Shown piece by piece: positions 4,230 to 63,830 of a stretch of 64,000 nucleotides of DNA; the first letter of the stretch is position 1; every line of letters starts with the position of its first letter. The DNA lies in NCBI GenBank assembly GCA_949152475.1, contig OX424570.1, forward strand, positions 8,544,181 to 8,608,180. Reading direction: 5' to 3'. The notes below the pieces were generated by a model. That model did not search any database. It saw only the letters and a program-made list of their open reading frames with translations, and was not told the DNA's origin. This DNA is from Terebella lapidaria (lineage: Eukaryota > Annelida > Polychaeta > Terebellida > Terebellidae). The position numbers and the translations under genes were made by a program.

Positions 4230-5600
4230 AGGTTACCGGACCTTTGGTCCGCTAACCTATTGGCATGGCGTTGCGTCCGGCGTCCGGCATCGGCGTCGGC
4301 GTCGTCCACATTTTTATCTTTTTTGTTTACGGACCAATCTTTCTGAAATTTTGCACAAAAATGCACAAAAATAATTCAAGAAGGATATATTTTTTAGTTT
4401 TTTGATCTTCGCAATTTTTTCAAAATGGCGGCCGTTTTTGTCGAAAATCGGCCAATTTTGGACTTTGGCGGCCATTTTCTCAAAATCTGTTCAGTAACTT
4501 TTTTTCTTTTTGATACATAACACTCCTCATATGTACTCCTATGATGTCTATAAATTTCGTCGCGATTGAATCGCTCGAAGTGGGCCATCTTGGCCCAAAC
4601 TCGGCCCAAATGGAACTTTCCCATGTTAAATTCTCCTATGCTTTATAATGGGACACATTAAGCCTAATATCTCACTTAATATTGAGATTAGAGACTAGGA
4701 ATCAATTGTGGACATATAGGAAATGATATATGCTGAATATTGTCGTGACCTTGAATTTGACCTTTGACCTCATTTTCAAGGTCACAGGACAAAATTGCCA
4801 ATATCTTGCTTATTAGCTACTTTACAGCTTAGGAATCAATTGTGAACATATAGGAAATGATATATGCTGAAAATTCTCATGACCTTGAATTTGACTTTTG
4901 ACCTCATTTTCAAGGTCACATGACAAAATGGCTAATATCTCGCTTATTATCGACTTTACAGCTTAGGAATCAATTGTGAACATATAGGAAATGATATATG
5001 CTGAATATTCTCGTGACCTTGAATTTGACCTTTGACCTCATTTTCAAGGTCACAGGACAAAATGGCCAATATCTTGCTTTTTAGCGACTTTACAGCTTAG
5101 GAATCAATTGTGAACATATAGGAAATGATATATGCTGAATATTCTAGTGACCTTGAATTTGACTTTTGACCTCATTTTCAAGCTCAACAGGACAAAATGG
5201 CTAATATCTTGCTTATTATCGACTTTACAGCTTAGGAATCAATTGTGAACATATAGGAAATGAGATATTCTGAATATTTTAATTATATTGAGTTTGACCT
5301 CTGACCTAAATTTCAAGGTCAGTCATTTTATTTTCAAAGTCAGATTACAAAATGGCTTATATCTCACTTATTATCGAATTTACAGCTTAGGGGTCCATAG
5401 TGAACATATAGGAAATGATGTATGCTGAATAGTTTGGTGATCTAGAATTTAACCTTTGATCCCATTTTCAAGGTTAGAGATATGGCGATTTCAGTGGTCA
5501 CCTTGAATTTGACCTTCAACTTTCTCGGCTTAACTCTGTATATTTCTCCGGTAACCTTTCTAGCCGATTGGGCTAATTTTTTTTCTTATTGTTACGTTTC
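4230..5600 (+). mobile_element. Hairpin-headed GGTCA repeat element, copy 1
   Basis: The copy starts with a 29-nt near-palindrome (4230-4258; 13-nt arms aggttaccggacc / ggtccgctaacct, loop ttt), then attggcatggcgttgcgtcc and a GTC/GCC-rich run. A body with tttctgaaattttgca and a cat-agg-agaattta motif follows, then a tandem array, and the copy ends near agccgattgggct. The same order appears in reverse at 56175-58023 and again at 62673-63830. It encodes no recognisable protein, so it looks like a non-autonomous element of unknown class. Confidence 0.7.
4680..5480 (+). repeat. Tandem array, about 135-bp unit, rich in TGACCT half-sites
   Basis: About six diverged units repeat with a period of 133-150 bp. 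Each carries taggaatcaattgtgaac, aggaaatgatatatgctgaa, a run of gaccttgaatttgacctttg type, and caaaatggctaatatct. The units lie inside the hairpin-headed element and recur, inverted, at 56230-56760. Two units hold the exact motif TGACCTTTGACCT (4758-4770 and 5026-5038). Confidence 0.85.
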
Positions 5601-22300: not shown

Positions 22301-23530
22301 ACATTCGGCCAATTTCTAAATATTGGACAATCACCGAGCAGGTAAGAGGAGGGTATCATGCTGTCTCCAGTAGGGCATCGTTGGTTCCCCAGTCTTGAAA
22401 TTTGCACGAACATTGTCGAAAAGCGCGCTCGAGGGTGAATCTGTTTGGCAACCGACGGGCATTGGCAGCCCATCAGTAACGCCTATCTAAACATCGTATG
22501 ATGTCATGCCTAAACCCGTAATCATTGGGAAAATGATATTCTGATACTTCCGTGCGTAGACTACCCACCGGTAGTTCGACAACAAACAGAGTTTGACGCC
22601 AGTTATGGATAAGTGTCAACCGGCGATTCAAGAAATCTTTACCACATGAAGGAATGCTCGGAGCGCTTTGTAGAATAACTATGCCATAGTTCAATCCATG
22701 TTTTGAAGATGTTAATGGTCATTATCATGTCGTTCCCACAACCTGGGAAGACTTCGAACTTCTTCGAGGATATTTCTGACATTTGTGATGCCCGCCAGTG
22801 GAAAGGCTTTTGGGTTTTCTAAAATTCGGAAGTATCGAGGACTCAGAACTAATCTTTACCAACGCCTGGACCCCCATGACCGTAACAGTGGTTTCAGTTG
22901 TGCATTACCAACGCCATCACTTCGACGATCAGAAAAACAACGTTTACAGCCAGATAGTACGATATCGTACTCCAGTTAAACAGACCAATGATTCCGGAGC
23001 AAAACGTCAGCATTTGCCGTTCAAACAAAGCAATCCATTCCACTTCAAAACACCAGGACTTGTGAGCACACCTGCGGCTGTATTCAAAAAAATAATATGG
23101 AGAGTTTTTTTCGGTACTCCTACCTACGTCGTAGGCCTACGTCAAAGAATTGGGACCACGCATGTCGAATCATTCTGAAGCTGCTGTGATTTCCAAAGAT
23201 ACGGTATATCTACAGACTACACCATCCAAATATCTGAAGGTCCAACGAAGTTTACTGGAAAACTTTATATTGATAGACACAACTGTTTTTTTAAATACCA
23301 AAATTGATGTTTCCACAATTGAAGGTCATTTTCAAGCTCACCACCGATATCATCATAGTTTATGAATTTTGATCTGGATGCACCAGTGTTTAGGCTCTTT
23401 CGGCAAATAGAGTATACTCCATAGACCTCCCACTATGAAGGAAAATATAAAAAAAAACGACCGCCGTTTCGGAGAAATATTATACCAAAATATAATATTG
23501 TGGGCTGCAATATTATATCATATTCTCATA
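22301..23530. other. No gene identified; unassigned open frame 22798-23178
   Basis: A 126-codon plus-strand frame (22798-23178) has no recognised motif. Short stretches at 22555-22660 and 25315-25420 share, in inverted orientation, cggcgattcaagaaa, ttaccacatgaaggaatgct and actctgttt-gttgtcgaact, so 22555-22690 is part of another dispersed repeat. At 23390-23450 a GGTCA-family fragment appears. Confidence 0.4.
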
Positions 23531-23543
23531 TCATATTGACAAC

Positions 23544-24107
23544 ATGTGTACTAAAGTTGCTAAACAATTGAATGCACTCTCTAGAATTAATAGTCACCTT
23601 GATAAAGTTAGTAAAATGTCATTGTACAATAGTTATATTGTGTCAAATTTCAACTACTGTGCTACTGTTTGGATGTTTTCCAATCGAACCTATCTAAATA
23701 AGCTCGACAAATTAAACAAACGAGCTCTCCGAATTGTATACAAAGATGATGTGTCTTCATATGATGAGCTGTTGGGTTACGATAACACTCTTGATGTCTA
23801 TAAAAGATGTATACTATCATTGTCTCTCGAAATATTCAAAATAAGAAATAGCACTGCTCCAAGTTATCTCCAACTGTTGAACGTTAATGCACCTATGTAC
23901 CATCTCAGAGATCAGAGCACTTATGTTCTACCTAATTTTGAAACTAAAACATATGGTTACCATTCTTTTCATTATATAGCAAGTAAACTGTGGAACTTCT
24001 TAGACTATAGTATTAAGAACACTTCATCGCTTCCACAATTCAAAAGGAGAATTAAACAATGGATAAAGTCGGTTGATGTCAATGTACTCAAGTCTGAATT
24101 CTTCTGA
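23544..24107 (+). pseudogene. C-terminal fragment of a LINE reverse transcriptase
   Basis: The 187 residues match the region after the catalytic core in Jockey/CR1/L2-superclade reverse transcriptases: KLNKRALRIVYKDD, then YDELL, then LEIFKIRNSTAPSYL, then a tail with LWNFLDYSIKN, FKRRIKQWI. The RT catalytic motif with the YxDD box is absent, so the copy is 5'-truncated and cannot make a working enzyme. The upstream junction is near 23530. The frame is fully open and followed by a complete-looking 3' UTR, suggesting a fairly recent insertion. Confidence 0.85.
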
Positions 24108-24417: not shown

Positions 24418-25467
24418 ATTACCTCAATGGAATATTTTTAGCCATATGTGCGCAAATATTCAGAAGTGTTCAATGTAAATTCCAAGATGAACATGTGGGA
24501 ACCAAACAAACAGACAAGAAACGCAACATCATACCAAAAAGTTACCAGACCTTGTATTAAAATAAACACACATTTTCTGAATTATATAGTTGGTGTAACA
24601 CAGTTTTTTGATAATGTGAGCAATGTGCTTTCATTGTCCCCTGCAGAACACTGTACTAGTGCATTACATAAATCGTTGATATAACCATTATCTGTAAAAG
24701 GTTATAAATTGTTGCAGGTAATATTATTTACTATAAAATGACTAATTTTGGCAGACGATTTATTTGGCGGTAATGGAAAAACATCCAAATTTAGTAGCCG
24801 CTAAAATTAGTCTTTTTACAGTACCTGAAATAGCTGACCAAGTCAACCATGAGAGGCAAATTTATCATCAAGGACAATATTTTCCAAAGAAAACAACACA
24901 AAAAACCACTGAAAAAAAATCATGCTTGAGAGCAGTTTGCTGGCCCAGGTAAAAGTTGCCAGAAACTCTCACATTGGGATATTAAGCTTGAGTAAATATC
25001 AACTTGTTTATATATATAAATATATTTTTTGTTACGAAGTGCTACTGTGTTTTCAACTGTTCTGCTGAGTATGCACACTGTACGTTTGTTACGGTTGTAA
25101 GGGTGTAGGCCTTGATCAAATATATTTTCTCAATCTGCATTTTAGCCGTTACCGACAATTTGACATCCAGTGACGATGGCGGTTCTTCCAAATGTCAGCA
25201 ATTTGCAATAAAATTGTTCGAAGCAGTATAAGGCTGTGAAAATAACGAAGTGAAGTTCATTCACACTTTCAAAAGGTAGATTGAACTCCAGTGAAACGAC
25301 ACAGCTATTTTACAAAGCGCTCCGAGCATTCCTTCATGTGGTAAATATTTCTTGAATCGCCGGTTGACACTTATCCATAACTGACGTCAAACTCTGTTTG
25401 TTGTCGAACTAACCCACCGGCAGACAACTGCTGGCTCCCTCTAGATATTGGAGGCAGACTGTCTGGC

Positions 25468-25970
25468 ATCCATTTGGGCATGGATAATTTCTCGATGGTT
25501 TCATTTGGGCATGGATTGCTTCACGGTGGTTTCATTTGGGCATGGATTGTTTCAAGGTGGTTTCATTTGGGCATGGATTGTTTCACGGTGGTTTCATTTG
25601 GGCATGGACTGTTTCACGGTTTTTTCATTTGGGCATGAATTGTTTCACGGTGGTTTCATTTGGGCATGGATTGTTTCATGGTGGTTTTATTTGGGCATGG
25701 GTTGTTTCACGGTGGTTTCATTTGGGCATGGATTGTTTCATGGTGGTTTCACTTGGGCATGGATGGTTTCACAGTGGTTTCATCTGGGCATGAATGGTTT
25801 CATGGCGGTTTCATTTGGGCATGGATTGTTTCACGTTGGTTTCATTTGGGCATGGATGGTTTGACGATGCTTTCATTTGGCCATGGATTGTTTCACATTG
25901 GTTTCATTTGGGCATGGATAGTTTGACGATGCTTTCATTTGGGCATGGATTGTTTCACGGTGGTTTCATG
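25468..25970 (+). repeat. Minisatellite, 31-bp unit, about 16 copies
   Basis: The unit reads ggtttcatttgggcatggat plus tgtttcacggt, with complete phase kept at 31 bases from 25497 onward. Because 31 is not a multiple of three, each plus frame cycles through all phases and the protein period is 31 residues over three units; all three forward frames stay open through most of the array. Units differ at a few positions (for example gacgatgc variants near the right end). There is no start context, splice site or flanking domain to support a real protein. Confidence 0.95.
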
Positions 25971-29620: not shown

Positions 29621-29699
29621 CAACTTATTTAATGCAGATGACGGAATTATGTATCTCCATGTAAATTCAGACAATTCTTAATACATTTATGCGCATTCT

Positions 29700-29850
29700 A
29701 CACAAACATGTTGATTTCGGAACACTGCACTGCTACAAAACCGAGCAAATACACAAAATAGTGCGCGGACCCAGAAATTCAATGACAGGGCCAAATTTAA
29801 TGCTAACTTTTTCAATTTTCGCGATTGAAGTCTGAAAAAAAATTGCCGTT
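29700..29850 (+). repeat. Dispersed repeat shared with 47305-47455
   Basis: Shared sequence includes acatgttgatttc, cgagcaaatacacaaaat, gtggacccagaaatt/cggacccagaaatt, aatgacagggc and gccgtttgactc. The second copy lies in intron 1 of the DUF6589-like gene of the large transposon. Confidence 0.7.
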
Positions 29851-29924
29851 TGACTCCCTGGTGAAGTATACCAAGTTATAATACTTATAATACGTTTGAC
29901 TCCCTGGTGAAGTATACCAAGTTA
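29848..29924 (+). repeat. Perfect 31-bp duplication
   Basis: Identical 31-base copies lie at 29848-29878 and 29894-29924 (start gtttgactccctgg, end ccaagtta), separated by 15 AT-rich bases. Confidence 0.9.
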
Positions 29925-42163: not shown

Positions 42164-42980
42164 AGCGCATTAGGGCCATGTTGTAAAACAAAAAAAAATG
42201 GAGCTTAAGTCGTGATCTCGAATTACAAAGTCGTGATCTCGAATTACAAAGTCGTGATCTCGAATTACAAAGTCGTGATCACGAATTACGAAGTCGTGAT
42301 CTCGAATCATGTTCTACTGTAGTCCGTGATATTTAAAATTATTGTGCGTATTAGGGCTATGTCATATGTAAAGCAAATGTGGAACTTAAGTCGTGATCTC
42401 TAAGTCAAATTCGTGATCACGAATTTATTACCAATAACTTAAAGTACAATTAAAATAAAAATATAATGTGCGTTCGATAATTTCAATAGTTAAATACACT
42501 TAAATGCACTATTGCAATGGTTACAAGTCAATTTAGTCCTCCCAAAGAACCCTGATTACCATCAGTTGTCATGACCACTACCTTGATAATCAGACAATAA
42601 GGTTATGCATGATATATTTTGATATTTTATAATTTAATTATGCAAGTTGTTATTCACGGTTTCAAATCGTTTTAACTTCGAATGAAAATATTGATGCAAA
42701 ATTGAACAACTTTATTTTGTTCCACTTTACTCGTACTTTAATACCATTCACAGTTCGAGATGTAAACTTAGTAATTCGAGATCACGACTTGGTAATTCGA
42801 GATCACGACTTCTTAATTCGACATCTCGACTTTAAAATTCGAGATCTCGACTTTATAATTCGAGATCACGACTTCTTAATTCGAGATCACGACTTTGTAA
42901 TTCGAGATCACGACTTTGTAATTCGAGATCACGAATTAGACACCTTAAATTTTTGACATACAACCTGGCCCTAATACGCT
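42164..42980. mobile_element. Foldback element with inverted 21-bp repeat arrays
   Basis: The ends match in inverted orientation (agcgcattaggg at 42164-42175; its near-complement at 42969-42980). Inside the left end are five 21-bp units, gtcgtgatctcgaattacaaa, from 42209 to about 42309. Inside the right end are about eight units of the reverse complement from 42771 to about 42938. A third, internal copy of the end (gcgtattagggctatg) lies at 42346. Arms made of short tandem repeats are the hallmark of Foldback-type elements. The 84-codon frame at 42702-42956 with 7-residue repeats (IRDHDFV) reflects the 21-base period and is not a gene. Confidence 0.8.
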
Positions 42981-44314
42981 TTCGTAATATAGAGTATTAT
43001 ATCAGTACAAAAAGACGAAGATCCTGGAACGGTCATAGTTTCTGAAAAAATTGCAAATATTTTCATGTAATTTTATTGAAAAATTGGATAGATTTCTGCA
43101 AATTTCTTTAAAAAACATGGACACAATTTAACGGATACTTAGGCGTGACAATAGGTGAGGTCAGAACTAAGTGTTAGAGTTTACTTAAGGGTGGATGATA
43201 ACAATAGTGTTAAACTTATCGGTGTTCTTTACCTACATTCAGTGTGGAGAGTTGACCATCTATAGGGTTTGAGAGTATAACTTGACACTAGATTATAAGG
43301 GGTATTAGTCAAGAGTTATACAAACCCAGGCTATGCTTTCTGGAACACTTTCCCTGTATGTTTTTACATATGCTGGATATTAACCTCTTGGGAATGAAAA
43401 ACAGAACAGGTCAACAGGTCAGAACTCCAGCGAACGATAAGGTCAAGGTCACAGAAAAAATCGAAATTGAAAAGTTGTAATAACTCTGCATATTTTCTTG
43501 ATCAATTTCCTCTATTAATTTTGGCATTTTTCTATGGCCAATTCCGCATCGTTTGATACATATATATATCCCTATTATCGCCCAAAGGTCGAAAATGTAA
43601 ACGTCAACAGCTGAACTCACTGATTCGTAATATTTCACCACTGGCGATATTCAATGGAATATTGAACATAAAGCATGCAGCATAAATCCAAAGGGTGTTC
43701 GAAGTTTGGGAGGTCAGTATCAAGAAATCATTTTGTGTTCCAGAATATGTTCAAAATAGATAAAAACTGATTTTATTCATGAATATTTCTCCCATGATTT
43801 TTGTGTTTTTCTATGACCACCCATTGCACTATTTGAAAATCGGTATTATCGCCCTATTTTTTCCCCTTAAAATGGCATCCACATTGCTCGAATTGCTCAT
43901 TGTCCAGAAGACTCTAATATGGTATTTAGGTCCTCAATACTACTCATCTACCTTACGACTGTCGGCCCAAGTATCATACCCTGCGCCTTCCTCTATATTA
44001 AATAATGATTTAAAAGGTGCGAGACGGATTAAATGATATGTTTTCAGTATCAAAGCTGTAAGTATGTTATAAATAGATAAACGACCATGTAAAAAAATAT
44101 TATGATAACGACCATGATCTTCCCCGACGGATAAACCGAACGTAAAACCACAGAACCACGCGTTGTTTGTTTTGCTTTGCATGTGGGCGGGTCTATGCAC
44201 TGGCGCGAGTCAGGCCGCCCACGACAGAGGCCAGAGGCAGTCGGCTGTAACGGCGAAGTGGTATAAAGCCATTCTTGCAGTATGTGTCGATGATCATTGG
44301 ACATGTTCCCCACA
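42981..44314. other. No gene; weak internal repetition
   Basis: Segments near 43480-43580 and 43760-43860 share tgatttt/ttttgg-type sequence, tttttctatg and tattatcgcccta, suggesting an old duplication; relatives occur near 61080-61220. The left flank of the large transposon shows no coding signal. Confidence 0.4.
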
Positions 44315-44322
44315 GCACAGAT
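44315..44322. repeat. Target-site duplication, left copy (gcacagat)
   Basis: These eight bases lie immediately outside the left TIR and are repeated exactly at 55530-55537, immediately outside the right TIR. Eight-base duplications are made by hAT, P and KDZ/Zisupton-type transposases, among others. Confidence 0.9.
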
Positions 44323-44771
44323 TAGTTCCGATGAAACTGACATTGGTACTGATGGTGCCACGTGAGTGTACCATGTCAGTTTCGTTGCTTCCCCATGGCT
44401 AAGTGGGCGGCCAGTCATAGGGGGTGATTTGCGGAGTTCATATCAGATCTTAACTAACATGCATTACACAAAAGAAACACACAATTCCATACCATGCACG
44501 TTGCCACATGCGACGAACTCGTACTTTGGAAGAATCGATCGTACAAACAGTTATATTTCAGCTCCAAATCGAAAACTTTTCAAGCAAAACAAACTTTCCT
44601 GCCATTTTCCTAGTTGTCGATGTATTCGCCAGGTGGCGGGCCGAGCTCATCTCAGGGCGAGGTCATTCTCAATTAGCATATCGTGTACGGGAAATCCAGT
44701 TGTTGTCAAACAATTGCACATGTCCAACGGTATACACGTGCTGTTCTATTGGGTCTCGCGAACACGCGGTC
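44323..44771 (+). repeat. Left terminal inverted repeat, 449 bp
   Basis: Begins tagttccgatgaaactg. Near the tip is an inner inverted pair: gaaactgacattgg at 44333-44346 and ccatgtcagtttc at 44371-44383, a likely protein-binding or hairpin site. Beyond 44771 weak similarity to the right end continues with small gaps to about 44801. Confidence 0.95.
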
Positions 44772-44927
44772 AGCAGGTCAGTACATGTGATCACCTGATA
44801 CTATCCACTGGTCATATCCAAAAACGACTGATTTCCACCTGGTCACCTTTTGTCCCTGGCCTGACCAACACGTATGGTTATATATATCAGCATATTGAAA
44901 CCAATCCCATGCCCTACACAAGCCATC

Positions 44928-44936
44928 TATATAAAG
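44928..44936 (+). promoter_or_regulatory. TATA box of the DUF6589-like gene
   Basis: The sequence tatataaag lies 36 bases before the chosen ATG (44972), placing transcription start about 10-15 bases before it. This supports 44972 over upstream ATGs in the same frame. Confidence 0.5.
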
Positions 44937-44971
44937 CCCAAACACCAAAAAATGTTCATGGAGACAGAATC

Positions 44972-47900
44972 ATGGAAAAGGTTTCAACGTGTATTAACTG
45001 CCAGGGCCAGTTCAATAAGAGAGGAAAAAAAATTATCAAGTACAACCTACGGACAATTACGTCACCCAGGACCAGGAGAACGGTATTTGATAACCTAGCC
45101 AACGTCAACCATGGTTACATATGTTGCAACTGTTTCGAGACACTAAAAAACAAAACAGTGAGGAAACGTAACTCAAATAAAAGGACACTCGATTTGAGGA
45201 AAAGTTCTGGAAAACGTCCCCGAGAAGAAAGTCCAGAAAGCAAACAACCGAACAAAACACGTATTTTGGAGGTACCTGTAAAGGAACAAGACGAGGCAAA
45301 CGACAGTTGTTCGTTTCGACGAATTGCAATAGGACACATCAATAAAGGCAATTATTTGAAGTGTTTTCGGTGCCTATGTAATAACTCCGCCTCGGCCAAG
45401 CATGCTTTGCAGTCAGTGTTTCTGGAGGCCGTCGCTGGTTGTATCAGAACGGCCAGGTTCACGTGTTTCCAGGGACCCACAGAGTCGGTCAAGGACATAC
45501 AGGAATTCAACTGGGACGGATCCTGTGAGAGTATTCGCGACGCAGCTCCAGAACTACATGCCACTTTGGATGCTGTCCTGCCTGCACCAAAAGTCTTTCA
45601 AGGCCAGGTCAAGAAAGGCCCTCAGAAAGATAAAAGGTAAGCACTGTCAATCTGTATAATAATAATAACAATTCGATTGATAATAACAATCGCTACGACA
45701 TTCATAACAAAATGGGTCATTGCTCAGATTTTAGTTGGTTGTGTCGTTTACACATGCATGGTATATCAGGAATATTATTTACCAAAAAAGCCCATTGACG
45801 TCATTGGCATGTATTTAGGGATCACGGAATGCACAATAATTGCATAAATTAAAATTATGTCGTCATATGTCAATGTATATTCTCCCTAACAATCTATAAA
45901 TAATTATGCACATACGCTATTTGGATGAATTATTTGACATGTCATGTCGCTCAGCATATGTTCAACTTGTTTACTATGCCATTGAAGGCAGTGTTCAATT
46001 CTATGGATGGTGTGTATCATCATCTGCATAGAGTATTGACAGATGAATTAATGGCATTTGAAAACATGATGCAAATATGTTATTCTCACGTGATAATTAG
46101 ACAGTTATGAAGCAGAACTATGAAAATATCTCAGGTCCCCTGATGAAATATTTGATGATGATACCACAAGTAAAAAAAACATGCATGAAGATTCTGTACA
46201 GTATTATGTAGTAAAGTTATTTTTAATAACCTATATATAGCTTTCATATAAAATCATTGTCTATTTCCAGGCCAAATCAGGCTATGCCACGTACGTTTAT
46301 TTGCATGACATGTAAAGTAGTGCAATGTGTGACAATCCAGGTTCAAGTGTTGTTTTCGTACCCACATATTCCACGGTGGCATAAAAATTAGCACTAGGGT
46401 AGAAAAGCAGTCGTGATTGCACAATTCAGTTACTACGTGAGAACTCTATAGCAAATCGACAAACAAACAACTAAGAGCACTGTCCATATTAATTGCATAT
46501 AAATCTGATAATTATTGTAACTTCGTGGACCTTCAAGGCCAGAAAAGTTGTATTCGTGAAATAATGCTCATTCTGTGAAATATAACATACAATAGTGTGA
46601 AACGTCTATATTGGTAGCTGTGGGGGTCTATATGCCGGAGAGTATGCCGGATTCCACAAGCGACCGAGCTGTCTAGTTAGTGCAATATTGCGCGCAATGA
46701 GAAGCCAAACACGTCATCGCCTTTTTAAAACTTTGTCATTGAGCTGTATAGCAAACAGTATAGAAGAGCATCATGCTTCAGCCTTTCCATAACTAAATTA
46801 TTCGCTTTAGAAAGATCATTCACTACAGTTCAGAACAAAGCAGGTTGGATATTTATGGGTCTATTTTGCTGTGTGAGGTTCGATAATGTATTGGGATGGC
46901 CTAATGTATGCCACAGACATCAGTGATGTGTTTTTACGTCTGTGATGTGTGAAGAACTGGCATGAAATGGCATGAAAAGGTTGTCATTTTCATATCGTAT
47001 TTATGTTTTACCCAGTATGCTCTGAGTGTTCTAACTTGTTATACCGATTTTTGACGATATTTTTGCGATGCTATCGATATAACTTGGCATACTTGACCTG
47101 GGAGACAAACGGCAATTTTCTACAAAATTTCAGACTTCTGTCGGAAAATTTAAAGAAGTTGGCAGTCTACCTCAATATTAAAATTCAGCCCAAAATGGGA
47201 TCTCGAGAATGTGAACATATTGCAGGATTTGGTTCTGTTTACATCCATCAGGATTGAAAGCATTATTTCAACTTTACTGCAGAAAACACATTGGGTTGTA
47301 TTTTATAAAAACATGTTGATTTCTGAAGATTGCTCCGCTTCAAAATCGAGCAAATACACAAAATTGTGTGTGGACCCAGAAATTAAATGACAGGGCAAAA
47401 TTTAACATTGGGATAGATTGCCAACTTTTCAATTTTTGCCGTTTGACTCTGAGTATTTTTTACTAGAATTTGTCAGAAACAACAATTATTATACATGTAG
47501 TGTCAGGTTGATTTGGTTTTGAATTTCGACAGTTACGTCATTTTGATGCAGCAGAAATGGGGGATGAAAATTCCGAATTATTGTTTTATACAATACAGGT
47601 TTCTAACCGAGATAGAGGCTCAGAGAAGGCGAGATGCACGCATGGGCATCATTATGGCAGTTATCCTGTACAGTCACAACCCATGGGTTTACAACAGGGT
47701 GCCATCTATCCTGGGTCTGCACATGTGGTTGGAAGGTGAGTAATAATAATTGGCAGACTCTAATAAGTTACCTTTAATTTGCCTCATTTAATGCTTAAAG
47801 TGTAAGGGAAGTAAATCGACATTTTCCCAATTATAATTCATATTGAAAAGCTTCCTGCATTTTCAACGTAACAACAATAATTGTCAGCAAGACCTATTTA

Positions 47901-50900
47901 TATGTGTTTGATATTAGTCCGAAAACATGACGTCGGCTTTATAAAAAAAAAAGGCTCAAACAACTTTTTCCAACTTATTTGCAATTATAGGATCAACCCA
48001 ACGGCTTTTCAAAGCCATGAACTATCTTGGCATAAGTCAAAGCAGTGACGCCAACCGACACCACGTAGACCGTCTGAGGACCGGGTTTGACGAATCCGTT
48101 ATATCATGGAAGAAAGAATCGGAGGTAAAATACTGATTTGGGAACTGGCGTACTTGTTATTTATTAAAGCATTCTGCAAGAAATGCTTTATGGTTTTAGC
48201 ATAATTTTTTCCCCCTTTTTCGTCTTTTTCCCACTTTTTTCCGCCATTCTGAATTTCGACCGATAACTTTAGTTTGGTTCGATGTATCTTCGCCAAATTT
48301 TTCAGCATTGATTAGACCTATTATGTGGAAGAACCCTATCGTTTTTCGACCGGATTCGAAGTCCGTGAGGTCCGTGAGGATGAAATCCATGTCGATTTTG
48401 TGTTTTAGTTTCCGCACAATAACTCAAAAATCTATGCAGGCAATGGCTGCAGAACTTTGCATTGAGGTTCATATACCAACAGGGAAGAACCCAATTGATT
48501 TTTGGATCAATCCCTCAAACGACCTTAGACCTAGAGGTCCGAAACAATTTCACCCAGTCATCCTTGAGGCTCCCTGCAAATCGCGGAAACAGTGCGTCGT
48601 AGAGCGAAACAGACGTTATTTCCGGACTCATCACCCTAGACAAACGTCTTAGGGGGTATTTGACCTTGACCTCAATTTTGTTTTCGCCGAGTCGACTTTT
48701 CCCGTTATTGGCGATGTCACAATAACAGTATGTCCTAAACCGAAAAGGACAAACATACCTAAGGGTATTATTGATTAACTTTGACCTTTCATCCATAAAA
48801 TTAAATTAAATTTTTTTTCATCCATATCTTGGAAACGGTGTGTCGTAGAGCTCGTGGCAAACATGTAATAAATATTATAAATTAGTCTTAACACCGAAAT
48901 GCCTCCAATGCATATCTTTAGGCCTTGACGTATAGTTGAATATTAGGTGACATATTTGTCTTGTGCATTGCAGAACAAATGCGGAGATCAGCAAACCTTG
49001 CCCCCTGCAGGATTCAGCTTATGCTATGATAATGTTCAGTTTGCGGTCACGCCCACGTTTCGCTCTAAGGATTCCACGTCGCACTTCCACATCATGGCTC
49101 TGGCCTTTGCAGTGAAACACCGTGTCACATTTCCCATAATCATCAATTCTGAGGATGTGTTACCACAGCGAGCCCAAGATATGTCACCACTATCTTTCTT
49201 GCCAACGGATGCTGATTTACAGACCCTGCGAGCGTACATGACCTTCACGTTGAAGAACATCGTGTGCAAGCACATGAAGAACCTTCCTGGCGTGAAGAAG
49301 CCTCGTAGTCCATCGCATGAACATGAGACAGCTATGTCCCAGAAGTCACAAGTGTGCAACCTTGGTGTGTTCGAAGGCAATCCAAGTCGGACACCAGATA
49401 CCATATGCATCATGGAGAGGTTGAACAGGTACACGCCACTTCACGACGGGAAGCCTCTCCTACTGCCAGTGCACGGTGACGGAGGGACAGTCGACAGTAT
49501 TACCAAGGCCAAGAAGGGCAGATCCCTCAGCCAATCGTCAGTCAATTCCTTCACTTCCTTCGTGGAACTGACTCAGGAATTTCACAAGGAAGGACTACTG
49601 ATGGAGGTATATTTATTTCCAGTTTATATATTGTAGTTTTAGTCATTATTCTCTGTTAGATTTTGCAATGTAGAAATAGTTTACGCTTGAATTGTGATTT
49701 GTGCTAACGATTTCGGTATACAATTATATTGTTTTCTATTGTAATAGGACCTCATGAAAGAAATGATGAAAGCGGAGACGAAGGCAGAACGTGGGACACT
49801 TGCTCATGTGAAAGTGTTATTCGGCCACTATACAGCCCAAACACCAGTCATGTCCCACTTCAAAGATGTCTGGAATCTCCTTTCGGTGAATTCAATTCTT
49901 CTATCGCACCTCAAACAAATTTCGCATATCAATGATGAGCAATTGTATTTGACCATATCTATATATATATATTTTGTTGGACTGCAGTTCGTCACAGAAG
50001 CACTGGTGTGTCTGCTCTTTTTGAAAGTAGCCGACATCAGCAGTCTGGATGCAATCCCGCACGTGGAGGAGGGGGATAACACGTGGTTCGACAGGAAGAT
50101 ACAGCAAATGTTGGATCGTGTTTTCTGTCGTCCCCCCTGTGAAGACATACGGGCTGTGTGTGATGGCTGGAGGGAGAGAACAGTGCCAGCGCAAGATCAT
50201 CAGTACTGCTTCTGTAATGAAGGTCAGGGCACACAGTCAGAATAAATTCTCATATTGTTTAATCATTTTGTGATCAACACACTGAATATGACAATACAGC
50301 GTTCAATGTCCAAATCAATATAAATGATTATATTATACTGTCTGCAGAGAATGATGAATGCCCCATGGTCAGATGCTGCAATTGTGCCTGTCCCCGAGAA
50401 TGGGTGCATTTCAACTGCGCGAGTCCGCCATTGCACAGCGCACCGATGGATGACTGGTACTGTTGCTCCGAGTGCGAGGACAGTGGTGGATACATCTACT
50501 GTATCTGCAAGGAGAAGAAGGGTGGGCGAATGGTTCAATGCGCCATGGGAGACAAGTGTGCTAGGGACGAGTGGTACCACGTGTCATGTCTGAAAGTGAA
50601 GAAAAGATACAAATTCCCAGGTATGTGACAGAAGGAACTGTGAAAATGAAATATAATAACTGACGCTTTGTTTTAAATTGGCATTGATGGTGAAATAAAT
50701 ACAACTACATTATATCTAAATTGATTCTGCAGAGAAGTGGTACTGCAGCGACCAATGTCATTTACAAGAAGATCCGTGTGACGATGGAGTCCTCCAGTAC
50801 ACGTTGTCACTCCTCTGGCAAGGCCTCAATCTGCTAGTTCGCAGGGATGCAGTTCGGCGTGGAAATGGACCAGTCATGTTGATGTTCTGGAAGTTGGATA

Positions 50901-51745
50901 TTCTGCAGTTTTGGTCGAAGAACCATTCTCGATATCTCCGACTTGGACATCGTTTGCTAACATGTACAATTGTGTTCTGACTTTTATAGCATCATTTTAG
51001 CGTATATATACACATATCATCATTATAGCATATCGTACATGTTTATTGGTTATGACATTATACAGATTTTCAAATATTACAGACGCAAGTGGCTTTTTGC
51101 CAAAGGCTGACACTGAGGAAATCATTTGGAATCGTGTGGCTAATCTGAAAGGGAGGAAGGACAGCAACATTCCTTTGGATCTCCTGAATGAGTTTCTCAA
51201 CAAAGACTTCAAAGGTATCATGCCTATTAAAATCAAGAAAAGTAAAACATGACCCATTTGGACATGTATTGGCACCCTGTAACCTAAATTGTTGTAGGAG
51301 GATTGTTTCGGTATTTGTATAGAATGCATTCATTCCATGATATTACGGTACACTCTTAAGTATATATAATCTTTGGTCAATTTTAGAGATGATCAAGCAC
51401 AGTCGAGGACAATACACCACTAAGCAAATTCAGCGCTGCAGCCAGATGGGAGGAGCCTTCCGTACGGAACTACAGGAGCTGCTGCAGAATGCGGACATCG
51501 CCGGCGACGTGGACTCGATTGGAGCATACAACTCCAAGGCCCCAAACACCACCAAGCACATAGAGGAGTTTGTGGAGGAGATGGCTCCACTGGCTTTGTT
51601 TGATTACTGTCCTCCTCGGCAACACAAAGGATTCCCCGGTTACGTGCGACCTTCATCGTCGATCAAACGTCCACGTCAACTTGGAAGAACTTTGAAAGGA
51701 CATTCCCAACAAATGGATAAATGGCAAGACATTGGTAGTTTGTAA
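44972..51745 (+). CDS. DUF6589-like, PHD-finger protein; putative transposase
   Basis: I place ten exons: 44972-45636, 47599-47735, 47991-48124, 48974-49606, 49748-49885, 49988-50222, 50348-50620, 50733-50963, 51083-51214, 51387-51745. All introns are GT-AG, all phases agree, and the total is 2937 bases (978 residues) with no internal stop. Residues about 1-60 hold a paired-Cys cluster (CINC...CCNC). Residues 250-520 and 740-900 form the core I recognise as DUF6589: CYDN (D331), VHGDGG (D471), EEIIWNRV and IPLDLLNEFLN (E852). These acids could be an RNase H-type catalytic set, which is inference. Two PHD-type fingers (about 643-690 and 699-747) are inserted into the core. The protein probably acts in the nucleus on the element's ends. 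The frame continues open upstream into the TIR, so a longer N terminus is possible. Confidence 0.8.
45637..47598 (+). other. Intron 1, enlarged by a dispersed repeat
   Basis: At 1962 bp this is by far the longest intron. The part 47305-47455 is a copy of the repeat at 29700-29850, so younger DNA has probably inserted here. Exon 1 (phase 2) joins exon 2 directly in frame, so no extra exon is required within it. Intron 3 (48125-48973) is also long and AT-rich with a 114-codon chance frame. Confidence 0.6.
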
Positions 51746-52984
51746 TGTTCTTCATGTGCTAATATATTGTCATTGGTTAGGTAATGCTAATGCTAATTGT
51801 TAACATATTGTCTTTGGCTCAATTGGTAAGGCATCTACATGTACATGTTGTACTGTGTTGTCAGTAGTATTGGTCAAATGTCCGGAAACTGATTTTCCTG
51901 ATAAATCAATGTACATTTTTCGTGGCAATACATGTAGCTGCAAAGTTGTAGGATCCTGAATACATATCCACAATACCCAAACCAAATCTTTCGTATAGGC
52001 ACTGTTCATCAAGATGGTTCTAGGGACAATGGACTATATCGTAATAAGTGTCTTTCTACAGGCCCTACCTTTGTATGAATTGTGAAATGGACTGATCCTT
52101 GTATATATGCTTTGTGAATATACTGATATTTTGGACATAAATATGATTTGTAGACTGGTCTGATGCTGAACATATTGGACTCTGTTAAACAGTTATGAAA
52201 CTGACATTGCATCATTATTCGTAGATTGGCTTGATGCTACAAGATACAAAATCATCTGTACAGTAATAAAGCTGTCCATATATGATCTGTAAATTGGAGT
52301 GTTGCTAAATGTGATATACAGTGGTAAGAATGTATGTCGTTTTACTGTGACAAGTGGCGTTGTATAATTATATATTAAGTGCACTGAATATGTTGTTGTA
52401 ATTAGGTCACAAGTCACAATTTATGTTCTCTTCCATATACACGTACATGTATGCTAGGTGAATATAATTCATACTGCAATTGCGTGAATGAGTAATTGAC
52501 TTGTAAACTTCAGGGTGTTCAACGTAGTCATATTTGGTAATGGTAATCGATATTGCAATTATCATATTTTAGATTTTGGGGGGTCATGATGTACATATTA
52601 TGTGACGTGTTTTGTGTACATATACATGGGAACAAAATCCTCGTACAATCGTATTTTGAATAAAAATATTGAAGAACATTTTCATTAGTTCCACTTAATG
52701 CTTGTTACAGTTTTTTTTTAATGGAAAATAGTCATAAAGTATTGACATATTCAAATATTCATCTCAATAAATATAAAATCATGTTGACCACCGATTCCAT
52801 TTTCCTCAACAATACATCATTAGTGTTCATATCAATTAAAAAACATAACAAATTTGATTTCGGGATAAATTTCCAAATCCTGCAAAATTAATTTGGTCTA
52901 CAAAATACAAAAATAATTTCTACAAAATACTGCATTCTTCAGTTGCAGTAAAGCAGGAACGAATTTGATTGCATTGTTTGTTAT
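51746..52984. other. Region between the convergent genes
   Basis: It holds 3' UTR sequence of both genes. For the plus-strand gene, aataaa occurs at 52265-52270 and 52659-52664. Three degenerate units with gtagattgg-cttgatgct lie at about 52145, 52218 and 52282. The 15-mer atgaaactgacattg at 52195-52209 equals the TIR-tip motif at 44331-44345. No clear polyadenylation signal was found for the minus-strand gene. Confidence 0.5.
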
Positions 52985-54924
52985 TCAGTGTTCCATCGGG
53001 GCTGAACAGCACCTCTCTCCGCCACACAATTTGTTTATATCTTTTTCCTGCATGCCTTGTAACATGAGATATTTACAAATACTCTTTCGTAGACATTCTG
53101 TCTTATTTTCGATGTAATTGAACATGCAACTTTGCACGTACTTCTTATTCAGTGAGTATGCAGGCAGATATAGAATAGCCTTACACTGGCGCCCATCTCG
53201 TCCTGCACGACCAACTTCTTGCCAATACATGAGGAGATTTTCAGATGGGCCCCAGTGCAAGACGTATTGTACATCTGGCACCTGCATACCCATGGCAAAG
53301 GCAATCGTGGTGATGAGCACTCGCAAGTTGCAATCTGGATGAGAGAACAGGACAGATATGCGTTTCGCGTCCGTCTCGTGTAGGTTCCCGTGGTACATGT
53401 CGACGATTCGACGGTCGCTGTCGTCCTGCGTGTCAACCAGAATTGCATCTTTGATGGCGTCATACAATTCGCCATAAATGTTTGAGCATATGTCAATTGA
53501 TCTGAAATGTGGATAGCATATTCCGGACAAGGAAAGCAATAAATATATATATGTAACATGATGATTACACGCAGCACTCGACGGCATTGTACAATGTAGG
53601 TCATGTACTAGTACCTTGCAAATATGATTATTTTGGGCATGTTTGCCCCCTCCGCTAAAATTAGACGTGTGACCCATCCCAGGCCTTCCGTGATGTTCTT
53701 CTCAGGAGATATTTCCAGATAAATGTTTGGCCTTCTCAAAAAATACATGTATGTTTTTCGTCATGCTACACTTGGCGTTAAATATCAAAATAAATAGAGG
53801 CATACTGTACAGAAAACCTACATAAAAAAAGCTGGGTACCGATTTGAAATTTCAGCGATAACATCGTAGTCCTCTGGCGGCAAGCCAAGATGGGAGGCTA
53901 TCTCTGTCACCATATGTTGGGTGCATGTGGCTGACAGTAGGAGCACTGGGGTGCTGGGGAAAATCGTTCGGAGTCGATCCATCTTCTGATACTCTGGTCT
54001 AAATGTTTGACCCCTTCAGCAACCGAATATATTTTGTAATAATTGTTTAATTTGTTTAATAATGCAGTGATGGCAATAGGTCTAATGGTCTATGCATATT
54101 ATCGATGGGCCATGTCATCGGCATTTAGCAAAGCTCAATAATTTTTTGAGGTTCAAACTGTTAGTTAAATGAACGAGTTTTATTTCACATTAATACATGT
54201 TCGATAGGAAATTACACACCATGTCAGCATACAGTGAACTTCATCGTAAGCCAACAGGGCTAGACTGTAGTGCTTACACCTTTTTCTTAAAAGACCCAAG
54301 AGAGGTTGTGCCACCACCAGTTCAGGGTATGTTAGAATCAACTGGACTTTCTTCTCGGCGATATCTGTGAATGTTGATACCATAAATTGAAAGATGCATT
54401 TTCAAAAAAAAAAACAGGCTTCTTGGAAATCACTTGTTATATTATATGAGACCGTACATATATGAACATGCCTTCTTTCATTTCTGGTGTGAGATCAGTT
54501 GCAGCCGACAGGGCGATTACTGCCAAACCAGTCCTGCACCATCAGCGCCGTTGGTCTTGTAGAAGGCTTTTCAGAGGGTACATCACCACACAGAAATGGG
54601 ACTTTCGTGTGGGATACATCTGATATAAAATATATAATATATATCAGGACTACCTGATGACGTTGCCATCAGTAATCTTGATTTATTCAACAATGTTATT
54701 TATGGAACCACTGAATTTCCGAATATTTTCGAACGTACCATGTCCAGAAGTGTTGGTGTGTATGCGAAGATGTCGCTCTTCCCATAGTTTGTAGGCAAAA
54801 CCAGGAAAAGGCCGAGTTTGTCTTGCACAGTGATTTTCCGAAAAGCTTCAAATTGTTTGTCTCGAAATTCATAAGGAATTTTCAAAGTTCTCCGCATGTG
54901 TGTTAATACTGTGGTGAAATCCAT
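52985..54924 (-). pseudogene. RecQ-like DNA helicase of the transposon, one in-frame stop
   Basis: I place six exons on the minus strand: 54924-54739, 54619-54472, 54364-54220, 54013-53840, 53731-53615, 53501-52985, giving 428 codons. In order they show the Q-motif-like RDKQFEAF (21-28), Walker A LPTNYGKS (43-50), motif Ia YPLKSLLQDQ (76-85), the DEVH box (152-155), SAT motif III (187-189), TTIAFAMGM (321-329), QEVGRAGRDGR (351-361) and a short Cys-rich end (ECLRKSIC, LCGGERCC) like a reduced RecQ zinc region. There is no HRDC or RQC winged-helix domain, so it is a minimal core. Intron 2 uses a GC donor (gaag|gcatgt). Codon 88 is TGA (plus-strand tca, 54542-54544), consistent with a CGA-to-TGA change, so this copy is probably dead or needs readthrough. 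Likely role: unwinding DNA during transposition. Confidence 0.8.
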
Positions 54925-54956
54925 GATTTATGGGTGACATGTGTTAGAGCATTGCT

Positions 54957-54963
54957 GTTTTAT
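54957..54963 (-). promoter_or_regulatory. TATA box of the helicase gene
   Basis: The minus-strand tataaaa (in gctataaaacagc) lies 33-39 bases upstream of the ATG at 54924, the same spacing as in the plus-strand gene. It supports this ATG as the start. Confidence 0.5.
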
Positions 54964-55080
54964 AGCTTATGGTGTTTGTATATGTGTGATGCAGATCAGA
55001 TGATGGTCATCTGGTGATAAAGCTGACCAGTGGTCAGATTGTTTAATATATTGTCATGTGTAAATATCAGGTGATGTACT

Positions 55081-55529
55081 GACCGTGTGTTCGCAAGACC
55101 CAATAGAACAGCACGTGTATACCGTTGGACATGTGCAATTGTTTGACAACAACTGGATTTCCCTTACACGATATGCTAATTGAGAATGACCTCGCCCTGA
55201 GATGAGCTCGGCCCGCCACCTGGCGAATACATTGACAACTAGGAAAATGGCAGGAAAGTTTGTTTTGCTTGAAAAGTTTTCGATTTGGAGCTGAAATATA
55301 ACTGTTTGTACGATCGATTCTTCCAAAGCACGAGTTCGTCGCATGTGGCAACGTGCATGGTATGGAATTGTGTGTTTCTTTTGTGTAATGCATGTTAGTT
55401 AAGATCTGATATGAACTCCGCAAATCACCCCCTATGACTGGCCGCCCACTTAGCCATGGGGAAGCAACGAAACTGACATGGCACACTCACGTGGCACCAT
55501 CAGTACCAATGTCAGTTTCATCGGAACTA
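55081..55529 (-). repeat. Right terminal inverted repeat, 449 bp
   Basis: Reverse complement of 44323-44771 with six substitutions and no gaps. It also carries an open frame parallel to the one upstream of exon 1 in the left TIR (reading from 55486 down to 55067), which stops just after leaving the TIR. Confidence 0.95.
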
Positions 55530-55537
55530 GCACAGAT
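55530..55537. repeat. Target-site duplication, right copy (gcacagat)
   Basis: Identical to 44315-44322. Marks the right boundary of the 11.2-kb element. Confidence 0.9.
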
Positions 55538-56174: not shown

Positions 56175-58023
56175 ATTAGCCCAATGGGCTAGAAAGGTTA
56201 CCGGAGAAATATACAGAGTTAAGCCGAGAAAGTTGACCACTGAAATCGCCATATCTCTAACCTTGAAAATGGGATCAAAGGTTATATTCTAGATCACCAA
56301 ACTATTCAGCATACATCATTTCCTATATGTTCACTATGGACCCCTAAGCTGTAAATTTGATAATAAGCGAGATATTAGCCATTTTGTCCTGTTGACCTTG
56401 AAAATGAGGTCAAAAGTCAAATTCAAGGTCACTAGAATATTCAGCATATATCATTTCCTATATGTTCACAATTGATTCCTAAACTGTAAAGTCGATAATA
56501 AGCGAGATATTAGCCATTTTGTCATGTGAACTTGAAAATGAGGTCAAAGGTCAAATTCAAGGTCACAAGAATATTCAGCATATATCATTTCCTATATGTT
56601 CACAACTGATTCCTAAGCTGTAAAGTCGGTAATAAGCGAGATATTAGCCATTTTGTCCTGTGACCTTGAAAATGAGGTCAAAAGTCAAACTCAAGGTCAC
56701 GAGAATATTCAGCATATATCATTTCCTATATGTCCACAATTCATTCCTAGTCTCTAATTTCAATATTAAGTGAGATATTAGGCTTAATGTGTCCCATTAT
56801 AAAGCATAGGAGAATTTAACATGGGAAAGTCCCATTTGGGCTGAGTTTGGGCCCAAAATGGCCCACTTCGAGCGATTCAAGGGCAACGAAATTTATACAT
56901 GTCACATGGGTACATAGGAGGAGTGTCATGCATTAATAAGAAAAAAAGTTACTGAACAGATTTTGAGAAAACGACCGTCGAAGTCCAAAATTGGCCAATT
57001 TTCGACGAAAACGGCCGCTCTGACCTTGAAACCAAGGTCAGAGGTCAAATTCAAGGTCACGACAATATTCATCATATATCATTTACTATATATCCACAAT
57101 TGATTCCTAGTCTCTAATCTCAATATTAAGTGAGATATTAGGCTTTAATGTGTCCCATTATAAAGCATAGGAGAATTTAACATGGGAAAGTCCCATTTGG
57201 GCCGAGTTTGGGCCAAAATGGCCCACTTCGAGCGATTCAAGCGCAACGAAATTTATAGACATCATAGAAGTACATATGAGGAGTCTTATGTATCAAAGAG
57301 AAAAAAAGTTACTGAACAGATTTTGAGAAAATGGCCGCCAAAGTCCAAAATCAGGCCTTTTTCGTCGAAAACGGCCGCCATTTTGAAGAAAAAGCGAAAA
57401 TCAAAAAACTAAAAAATACCTCCTTCTTGAATTATTTTTAAGTATTTTTCTGCAAAATTTCAGAAAATTCGCCCTTAAACAAAAAAGATAAAAATGTGGA
57501 CGACGACGACGACGGACGACGACGGACGACGGACGCAACGCCATGCCAATAGGTTATCGGACCATAGGGGCGGTAACCTAAAAAAAGTTACTGAACAGAT
57601 TTTGAGAAAACGACCGTCGAAGTCCAAAATTGGCCATTTTTCGACGAAAACGGCCGCTCTGACCTTGAAACCAAGGTCAGAGGTCAAATTCAAGGTCACG
57701 ACAATATTCAGCATATATCATTTACTATATGTCCACAATTGATTCCTAGTCTCTAATCTCAATATTAAGTGAGATATTAGGCTTTAATATGTCCCATTAT
57801 AAAGCATAGGAGAATTTAACATGGGAAAGTCCCATTTGGGCCGAGTTTGGGCAAAATCAAAAAACAAAAAAAGCCTTTCCTGGAAATATTTTTAGGTATT
57901 TTTGTGCAAAATTTCAGAAATATTCGCCTGTAAACTTTAATGATAAAAATGTGGACGGACGGACGCCGGACGACGGACGCAACGCCACGGCAATAGGTTA
58001 TCGGACCAAAGGGCCGGTAACCT
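56175..58023 (-). mobile_element. Hairpin-headed GGTCA repeat element, copy 2 with an internal duplication
   Basis: On the minus strand it starts with the hairpin head (57995-58023, arms aggttatcggacc / gggccggtaacct) and ends with the palindrome tagcccaatgggcta (56178-56192). A second head lies inside at 57551-57579. The segment just outside that inner head, about 57586-57850, repeats 56940-57210 (acagattttgagaaaacgac, gtcagaggtcaaattcaagg), so one copy has inserted into or recombined with another. Five diverged 135-bp units follow at 56230-56760. Confidence 0.75.
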
Positions 58024-59809: not shown

Positions 59810-60556
59810 ATTGTAGATGTTTGAAACTAATTCTATCTGCTGTGTAGAAGATTATAACGATATAATTTGGCACAGATAAATATTCTAGTTTCCAAAATAT
59901 TGATATTAATAATAATATTTTCAGGTACATCCTGCACTAAAAATAAAGTATTCATGCCAGAAAATTACTCACACTGCATAATTGGTATCTTGTAATAGCG
60001 CCCGAGTCTCCGTTTTTCCATTATCCAAGGCAGTGTTGCACATTAACAGTGCAAAGTTGATACACTATTTTGCTCTTTTACCAAAATCCCAGAACACATG
60101 GCTGCACTGGTTTTCTGGTCCACATTGCATGCTTGACCCTTTCCTCAATACAACCAATGCACAAAACTCAGACCTCAAGACCAGTGGTCATGCACTGATG
60201 ACTCTGCAGGCAGAGGGTCAAGTCAGCAAAGTGGACCATAAAATCAATGCATCCATGTGCTTTGGAATTCCGGCTTGACAGCAAAATAGTGTCAAATTTG
60301 CGCTGTAAATGTGCAGCACTGACTTGGATAATGGATAATCTAAGTCTCGGGCGCTACAGCAGGATATCCATTTCACATTGTCAGTATGTTTTCAGAACCA
60401 ATACTTTGTGAATTTTTAGGCAGGATGTACCTGAAAATATTGCTAATAATTTCTATATTTTGAGAATAATGATATTTATCTCTGTCAAATAATATCATGA
60501 TAATCTTCTACATGGCATATAGAGATAATTTAGGAATAGACGTGGAATCAATTTTA
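59810..60556. mobile_element. Foldback-type element with 250-bp arms
   Basis: The left arm (about 59810-60050) and right arm (about 60293-60555) are inverted copies, with shared tagaagattat, ttttcaggtacatcctgc, gcgcccgaga/gcgcccgagt and ccattatccaag. The loop of about 240 bp carries a chance frame (59982-60278). No transposase is present. Confidence 0.7.
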
Positions 60557-60690
60557 GGCAGGATGTACCTGAAAATATTGCTAATAATTTCTATATTTTG
60601 AGAATAATGATATTTATCTCTGTCAAATAATATCATGATAATCTTCTACATGGCATATAGAGATAATTTAGGAATAGACGTGGAATCAAT
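60414..60690 (+). repeat. Perfect 138-bp tandem duplication
   Basis: 60414-60551 and 60552-60690 are identical by eye and comprise the outer half of the right arm of the neighbouring foldback. The lack of any difference points to a very recent event or an assembly artefact. Confidence 0.9.
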
Positions 60691-62672: not shown

Positions 62673-63830
62673 AGCTTACCGGTCCTATGGTCCGATAAGC
62701 TATTGTCGTCAGGTTGCGTCCGGCGTCCGTCTGTCGGCGTCAGCGTTGTCAAACGCTGGGAAAAATCTGTTCGATGAATATTGCTGTAATTCACAAAATA
62801 TGTTCTATGGGCCCATATCTCCGGACCATTTTTTTTCGTCGATTGAATCGTTTTTCCAAATTGGCGGCCATTTTTGTCGAAAAAATGGCCAATTTTGGAT
62901 TTTGGCGGCCATTTTCTCAAAAACTGTTCGATCAGATTTGAGATTTTTGTTTCAAAAGATTCCCCTGATATACCTTTGTGCTGTGTATAAGTTTCGTTGC
63001 CCTTGAATCGTCGGTCTGCGTGTGGCACCCATTTTGACTTTTTCGATCGGTCCCAGATAGAACTGTCCCATGTTAAATTAGCCTATGCTTTATAATGGGG
63101 ACGAATTTCTCCTGATATCTCACTTAAAATTGGGATTAGACATAAGGAATCAATTGTGCACATATAGGAAATTATATATGCCGATTATCCTTGTGACCTT
63201 GAATTTGATCTTCGACCTAATTTGCAAGGTCACAGCACAAAACGGCTAATATCTCGCTTATTATCGACTTTACAGCTTAGGAATCATTTGTCAGCATATA
63301 GGAAATGATATACATGTACTCTGAATAGTATCGTGACCTTGAATTTGACCTTTGACCTCATTTTCAAGGTCACAGGACAAAATGGCTAATGTCTCGCTTA
63401 TTATCGACTTTACAGCTTAGGAATCAATTGTGAACATATAGGGAATGATGTATGCCGAATATTTCGATGACTTTGAACCTGACACTTGACCTCGTTTTCA
63501 AGGTCAGAGCACAAAATCGCTAATATCTTGCTTATTATCGACTTGACATTTTAGGCATCAAAATGAGGACATATAGGAAATTATATATGCCGAGTTTTCT
63601 TGTGAGCCTAAATTTGACCTTTGACCTCAATAAACTGAAACCGATACAAAAGCAAAGGATATCTTTGACAGCACTAGTCCGTTCCATTCTAGTTTCATAT
63701 AATTGTATATTAGGCTCTAACACGATCGACTTACGTAGAGCAAGATTTAGGCGTGAATGATGTGCAATTATTCTCATGACTTCATGACATTGCTTTCACC
63801 TTACATATAACTGAAACATATATCTTGGGT
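62673..63830 (+). mobile_element. Hairpin-headed GGTCA repeat element, copy 3
   Basis: Hairpin head at 62673-62701 (agcttaccggtcc tat ggtccgataagct), then a GTC-rich run, aaaatggcc motifs, a ttaaattagcctatgcttta box, and four diverged 130-bp units from about 63125 (taggaaatgatatac-type boxes with TGACCTTTGACCT at about 63348). At about 63830-63930 another degenerate head starts (cagacctttggcatgatac, ggcatggcgttgtgtccg), cut short by the window end. Confidence 0.75.

Follow-up and report, generated by a model that had tools for sequence, protein, structure and literature searches.

The window analysed here, a 64,000-nucleotide stretch of the genome of the polychaete Terebella lapidaria (contig OX424570.1, positions 8,544,181 to 8,608,180, forward strand, of assembly GCA_949152475.1), contains a real and nearly intact transposon of 11,207 bp that runs from one terminal inverted repeat (TIR) to the other between positions 44323 and 55529 (coordinates throughout are positions within this 64-kb window). 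Between its TIRs and target duplications lies a gene for a protein of DUF6589, an uncharacterised Pfam family, beside a gene for a RecQ-family helicase, and we put at about two in three the probability that the element is an AcademH DNA transposon with the DUF6589 protein as its transposase. RecQ helicases in DNA transposons were already known; what is new is the link between DUF6589 and a transposon, together with a pair of PHD fingers that appears to be inserted in the DUF6589 domain. The original prediction, made from the letters of the window, had proposed a recent transposon that pairs these two proteins; the PHD fingers, a nonsense codon in the helicase gene, an ambiguity between 8 and 9 bp in the target duplication and a palindrome near the TIR tip go beyond it.

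Boundaries of the element

The left TIR (44323-44771, forward strand) and the right TIR (55081-55529, reverse strand) are each 449 bp long, and their alignment has six mismatches and no gaps, a divergence of 1.3%, as had been predicted. The element is flanked by an exact direct repeat, GCACAGAT, at 44315-44322 on the left and at 55530-55537 on the right, so the predicted 8-bp target duplication holds with symmetric TIRs. Since an A precedes GCACAGAT on both sides, however, a 9-bp reading, AGCACAGAT (44314-44322 and 55529-55537), also fits; it requires that the terminal A, with which the right TIR ends, be assigned to the target and lie outside the TIR. A 10-bp direct repeat at the element ends fails. 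A search of the 64-kb window for the 19 bp that open the TIR, tolerating up to 3 mismatches, found them at the two element ends only, against a mean of 0.01 expected by chance, and we therefore set aside the idea that the TIRs are a chance pairing; elsewhere in the window, both TIRs excepted, the longest matches to the TIR are 15 to 19 bp. The G+C content of the element is 40%, equal to that of the remainder of the window. Its supposed recency stands in part: the low TIR divergence and the exact duplication agree with it, but the interrupted helicase gene (below) points to some decay.

Near its tip the left TIR contains a palindrome (44333-44383) with 11-bp arms at 44333-44343 and 44373-44383, which correspond to TIR positions 11-21 against 61-51 (E 0.038). 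Folded as DNA, the left TIR tip gives -13.2 kcal/mol (z -4.17), a value equalled by 0 of 200 shuffles; this calculation covers the left TIR. The six TIR mismatches all lie outside the arms, and the palindrome is therefore present in the right TIR as well; it is a possible candidate for a transposase binding site. TIR positions 9-23 recur as an exact 15-bp copy on the forward strand at 52195-52209, in the interval that separates the two genes at their 3' ends (E 0.08, a value that chance could produce). An open frame of 424 codons (44366-45640) runs from within the left TIR into the first exon of gene 1, and a comparable one of 139 codons lies in the right TIR.

Two convergent genes and a PHD pair

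The interior holds two spliced genes that converge, their 3' ends facing each other, in agreement with the prediction; splice sites were inferred from splice-site letters together with homology. Gene 1 (44972-51745, forward strand), which begins 201 bp inward of the inner end of the left TIR, encodes the presumed transposase, a DUF6589 protein of 978 aa, in 10 exons (44972-45636, 47599-47735, 47991-48124, 48974-49606, 49748-49885, 49988-50222, 50348-50620, 50733-50963, 51083-51214 and 51387-51745). All of its introns are GT-AG and its frame has no internal stop. Gene 2 (52985-54924, reverse strand) begins 157 bp inward of the inner end of the right TIR and encodes a RecQ-family helicase core of 428 codons in 6 exons (54924-54739, 54619-54472, 54364-54220, 54013-53840, 53731-53615 and 53501-52985); the intron after its second exon is GC-AG. 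Each gene is preceded by a TATA-like box identified by consensus match, at 44928-44933 on the forward strand for gene 1 (with a second TATATA at 44879) and at 54959-54964 on the reverse strand (TATAAA) for gene 2. Two pieces of the first intron of gene 1, 47078-47164 and 47300-47405, match 29801-29880 and 29695-29800 with identities of 80% and 86%, and probably represent another repeat family lying inside the element.

Profile searches of both proteins, which the original prediction had recommended, bore out the homologies that it named. The gene 1 protein matches DUF6589 (PF20231) with E 7.7e-32 and 110.9 bits, against a Pfam cut-off of 27, and this match lays residues 378-887 (510 residues) on profile positions 3-393 of 410 (391 positions). 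The protein was also scanned in pieces, with our cuts placed at residues 640 and 745: ahead of the zinc fingers the match covers DUF6589 profile positions 3 to 242-244, behind them it covers positions 256-395, and all four protein pieces scanned passed the DUF6589 cut-off. The residues in excess of the profile thus fall after its position 244 and before its position 256, at the gap in the piecewise matches, which is where the PHD pair sits. The score of the first part for DUF6589 is 59.5 bits with intron 5 spliced out and 46.6 bits with it retained, which supports the gene 1 model. No named transposase family matched the whole gene 1 protein in Pfam at E up to 10, a scan in which the HMMER filters discard most matches above 0.1 and which gave only DUF6589 and a sub-threshold Drf_GBD. 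Matches below cut-off to the protein or its pieces were, in all, to Drf_GBD, DUF4760, Dimer_Tnp_hAT, MIMI_R596-like_C, DUF7564 and zf-LYAR.

The insertion consists of tandem ING-like PHD fingers (50192-50767, forward strand; about residues 638-750), and two introns cross its coding stretch. Scanned alone, the pair matches PF00628 in two stretches (E 5.1e-7), although PF00628 is not listed in the Pfam scan of the whole protein. The region as a whole matches Yng1 (E 1.8e-9); of the single fingers, the first has yeast Yng1 as its best match (E 4e-10) and also aligns with ING1-3, and the second has ING2 (E 5.4e-8). By eye, both fingers keep the Y and W positions that we take to be those of the ING2 methyl-lysine cage. 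Judged from these alignments, the PHD pair interrupts the presumed transposase domain between its two halves, and it may steer integration to active chromatin. Three acidic residues, D331 (in YDN), D481 (in HGDGG) and E852 (in NIPLDLLNE), are candidates for catalysis proposed from their context.

Gene 2 matches the recQ_fam model TIGR00614 with E 4.8e-52 and 177.3 bits, short of the curated cut-off of 219.8. In Pfam, DEAD (1.6e-13) and Helicase_C (3.7e-12) are both above cut-off, RecQ_Zn_bind reaches only E 0.083 (14.1 bits against a cut-off of 25), and comparison with ATP-dependent DNA helicase Q1 gives E 3.9e-33; the Pfam and helicase Q1 scans used an earlier model of gene 2 in which exon 2 was five residues longer at its end. 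The gene model stops at the zinc region, and the matched RECQ1 chain (531 residues) continues past residue 418. Codon 88 of the helicase is an in-frame TGA in this copy (54542-54544, reverse strand); barring a sequencing error or a rare allele, the helicase gene is interrupted here. Pfam at E up to 1 gave no nuclease family on either gene model. Besides gene 1, only the helicase gene was recognised between the TIRs, and the DUF6589 protein is, as had been proposed, the likely transposase.

Probable placement in AcademH and the rival explanations

A helicase of RecQ type, TIRs, a duplication of 8 or 9 bp and spliced, hence eukaryotic, genes make AcademH the best fit. "RecQ Helicase in Academ" is listed in PMC3627910; among fungal Academ copies, 1,568 of 1,938 have recognisable protein domains, of which PF00270 and recQ_fam are named (PMC6416283), and DEAD and Helicase_C domains have been traced to AcademH, KolobokH or Helitron elements (PMC10799480). 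The title of Kojima 2020, as cited in PMC10799480, reports AcademH in animals and fungi. These sources contradict the original prediction where it held that Academ elements carry other helicases; likewise, a RecQ helicase in a DNA transposon, which it treated as rare, has already been published for Academ (PMC3627910, PMC6416283) and for Kolobok (PMC9587614). AcademH leaves duplications of 9 or 10 bp and AcademX of 3 or 4 bp (PMC10045372), and the 9-bp reading of the duplication, seen in one copy only, fits the former.

Several observations weigh against this assignment. Symmetric TIRs give a duplication of 8 bp and not of 9-10 bp; the mean bivalve Academ consensus is 5,565 bp, half the length of this element (PMC10294476), and PHD fingers go unmentioned in the excerpted descriptions of Academ. 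D331 precedes the stretch that matches DUF6589, and a single-sequence structure model of exon 4, the sole exon that holds both candidate aspartates, has a mean pLDDT of 35.8 and so lends no support to a fold. A piece taken from behind the PHD pair matches Dimer_Tnp_hAT, the hAT dimerisation domain, below threshold (13 bits where the cut-off is 21.4, E 0.09), and the helicase gene of this copy carries its in-frame stop. Finally, the placement in AcademH is one by architecture, set against published descriptions of the group, and the DUF6589 protein is a putative counterpart of the Academ transposase.

Kolobok elements have TTAA as their target, and Kolobok and KolobokH are excluded by the target found here, GCACAGAT. 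AcademX, with a nuclease in place of the helicase and its much shorter duplication, is excluded by the presence of a helicase, the lack of a nuclease match and a duplication of 8-9 bp. An 8-bp duplication alone would fit hAT and Zisupton, but both are disfavoured. Dimer_Tnp_hAT stayed below cut-off on one piece and is not listed for the whole protein, and the C/DxxH signature has a single occurrence in the whole gene 1 protein, at residue 745, in the second PHD finger's tail. Pfam includes a KDZ model, and no KDZ transposase match appeared at E up to 10, which argues against Zisupton/KDZ.

Of the broader alternatives, the one that we take most seriously, though we consider it unlikely, is a separate and unnamed superfamily with a DUF6589 transposase and 8-bp duplications, which acquired RecQ independently of Academ and Kolobok. 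The 8 bp obtained with symmetric TIRs, in place of 9-10, would suit such a group, as would the absence of a named transposase match to the whole protein in Pfam (within the limits of that scan) and of any paper naming DUF6589 in a literature search, where PF20231 turned up only in an optics paper; however, RecQ with a duplication of about 9 bp is already the description of AcademH, and the 9-bp reading may hold for this element. Kinship with MULE and Rehavkus elements is clearly less probable, and we disfavour both. Long TIRs, of hundreds of bp in MULEs, and duplications of 8-11 bp mark these elements, and the 449 bp and 8-9 bp found here correspond to them, but no MULE family matched in Pfam at E up to 10, which leaves room for distant kinship, and no minisatellite adjoins a TIR, the element having two weak arrays at 46954-46977 and 48206-48239. 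Moreover, the C/DxxH signature shared by MuDR, hAT, P, Kolobok and Dada (PMC9587614) is limited to the PHD tail. Least probable is capture of a host RecQ gene by this copy alone, with no bearing on transposition: the nonsense codon would suit such a gene, but the helicase has its own TATA-like box, the whole gene lies between TIR and gene 1, its model ends at the zinc region where the RECQ1 chain continues, and RecQ recurs in Academ and Kolobok elements.

If the element is an AcademH transposon, we infer the following scheme for its movement. DUF6589 would form the core of a catalytic fold of RNase H type in the gene 1 transposase, with D331, D481 and E852 as candidate catalytic residues; this protein would recognise the long TIRs, its binding sites being perhaps the tip palindromes, and mobilise the element, which would be joined to a staggered target cut so that 8-9 bp are left duplicated. 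The PHD pair would read histone H3 tails, probably K4-methylated ones, and would direct the reaction to active chromatin or permit it there. The intermediate would be the substrate of the RecQ helicase, which would unwind the ends or aid gap repair or copying.

Surroundings, wider searches and known systems

Arrays of a satellite-like unit of 134-140 bp flank the element at 4696-5321, 56260-56781 (and 56661-57378) and 63145-63629; by eye, the array at 56260 is in the opposite orientation. The window also contains a 31-bp tandem repeat of 16 copies (25471-25969), mostly open in one frame (25445-25864), two copies of a 138-bp unit with 100% matches (60414-60690), and two 21-bp arrays (42207-42307 and 42766-42934) whose units are, by eye, reverse complements of each other. 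An open frame of 203 codons (23496-24107) resembles, again by eye, the end of the polymerase of a non-LTR retrotransposon and has no Pfam match at E up to 1. An Rfam scan of the window gave no match.

Relatives of gene 1 were sought in collections of viruses and prokaryotes, so their absence there says little. Peptide patterns matched four stretches in viral contigs, none of which encodes a relative. We generalised the motif NIPxDLxxExxLN to a degenerate pattern for searches of both collections; in viral contigs it matched 10 records; DUF6589 is matched by 0 of these 10 and likewise by 0 of 14 control genomes, which leaves that search with no positive control. In prokaryote genomes it matched 99 stretches, 80 of them listed. 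In tblastn against 109 viral and prokaryote loci gene 1 matched nothing at E up to 0.1; the helicase matched two of the same loci, L037 (E 3e-27) and L067 (E 0.009), which are presumably bacterial helicases.

The element family may already have a named entry in Repbase or Dfam. Should the arrangement described here recur elsewhere, annotations of DUF6589 or RecQ-like genes in other genomes may refer to genes of transposons, as the original prediction had also suggested; for fungi the idea that RecQ in transposons inflates host annotation is already known, Academs there being often annotated as host genes (PMC6416283). More tentatively, DUF6589 might be the catalytic domain of a group of helicase-carrying transposases, split here by a tandem reader of methylated H3K4, which would make the protein a transposase guided to chromatin by itself, able to sense active promoters and working with a RecQ partner; we regard this as possible but rather doubtful. 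A histone-reading PHD pair in a transposase would, if true, give a further example, besides RAG2, of a link between DNA transposition and histone marks.

Among known systems, AcademH shares with this element a helicase of recQ_fam type, and its duplication of 9-10 bp compares with 8 or 9 bp here; at 11.2 kb the element is far longer than the bivalve Academ consensus, and against the excerpted descriptions of Academ the PHD pair is a feature of its own. KolobokH and Kolobok-1_CCri also place a RecQ helicase in a DNA transposon, that of Kolobok-1_CCri lying on the complementary strand, as here (PMC9587614). Rehavkus, an outgroup of the MULEs, has a PHD finger whose description, as excerpted, does not state histone binding; it has a minisatellite before its 3' TIR, whereas this element has none there, and the word helicase is absent from the paper that describes it, in contrast to the RecQ helicase found here. 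The RAG1/RAG2 lineage, as excerpted in PMC8355894, ties transposition machinery to an H3K4me3-binding PHD finger; there the finger belongs to the partner protein RAG2, whereas here the PHD pair, with its predicted histone binding, lies inside the presumed transposase domain itself.

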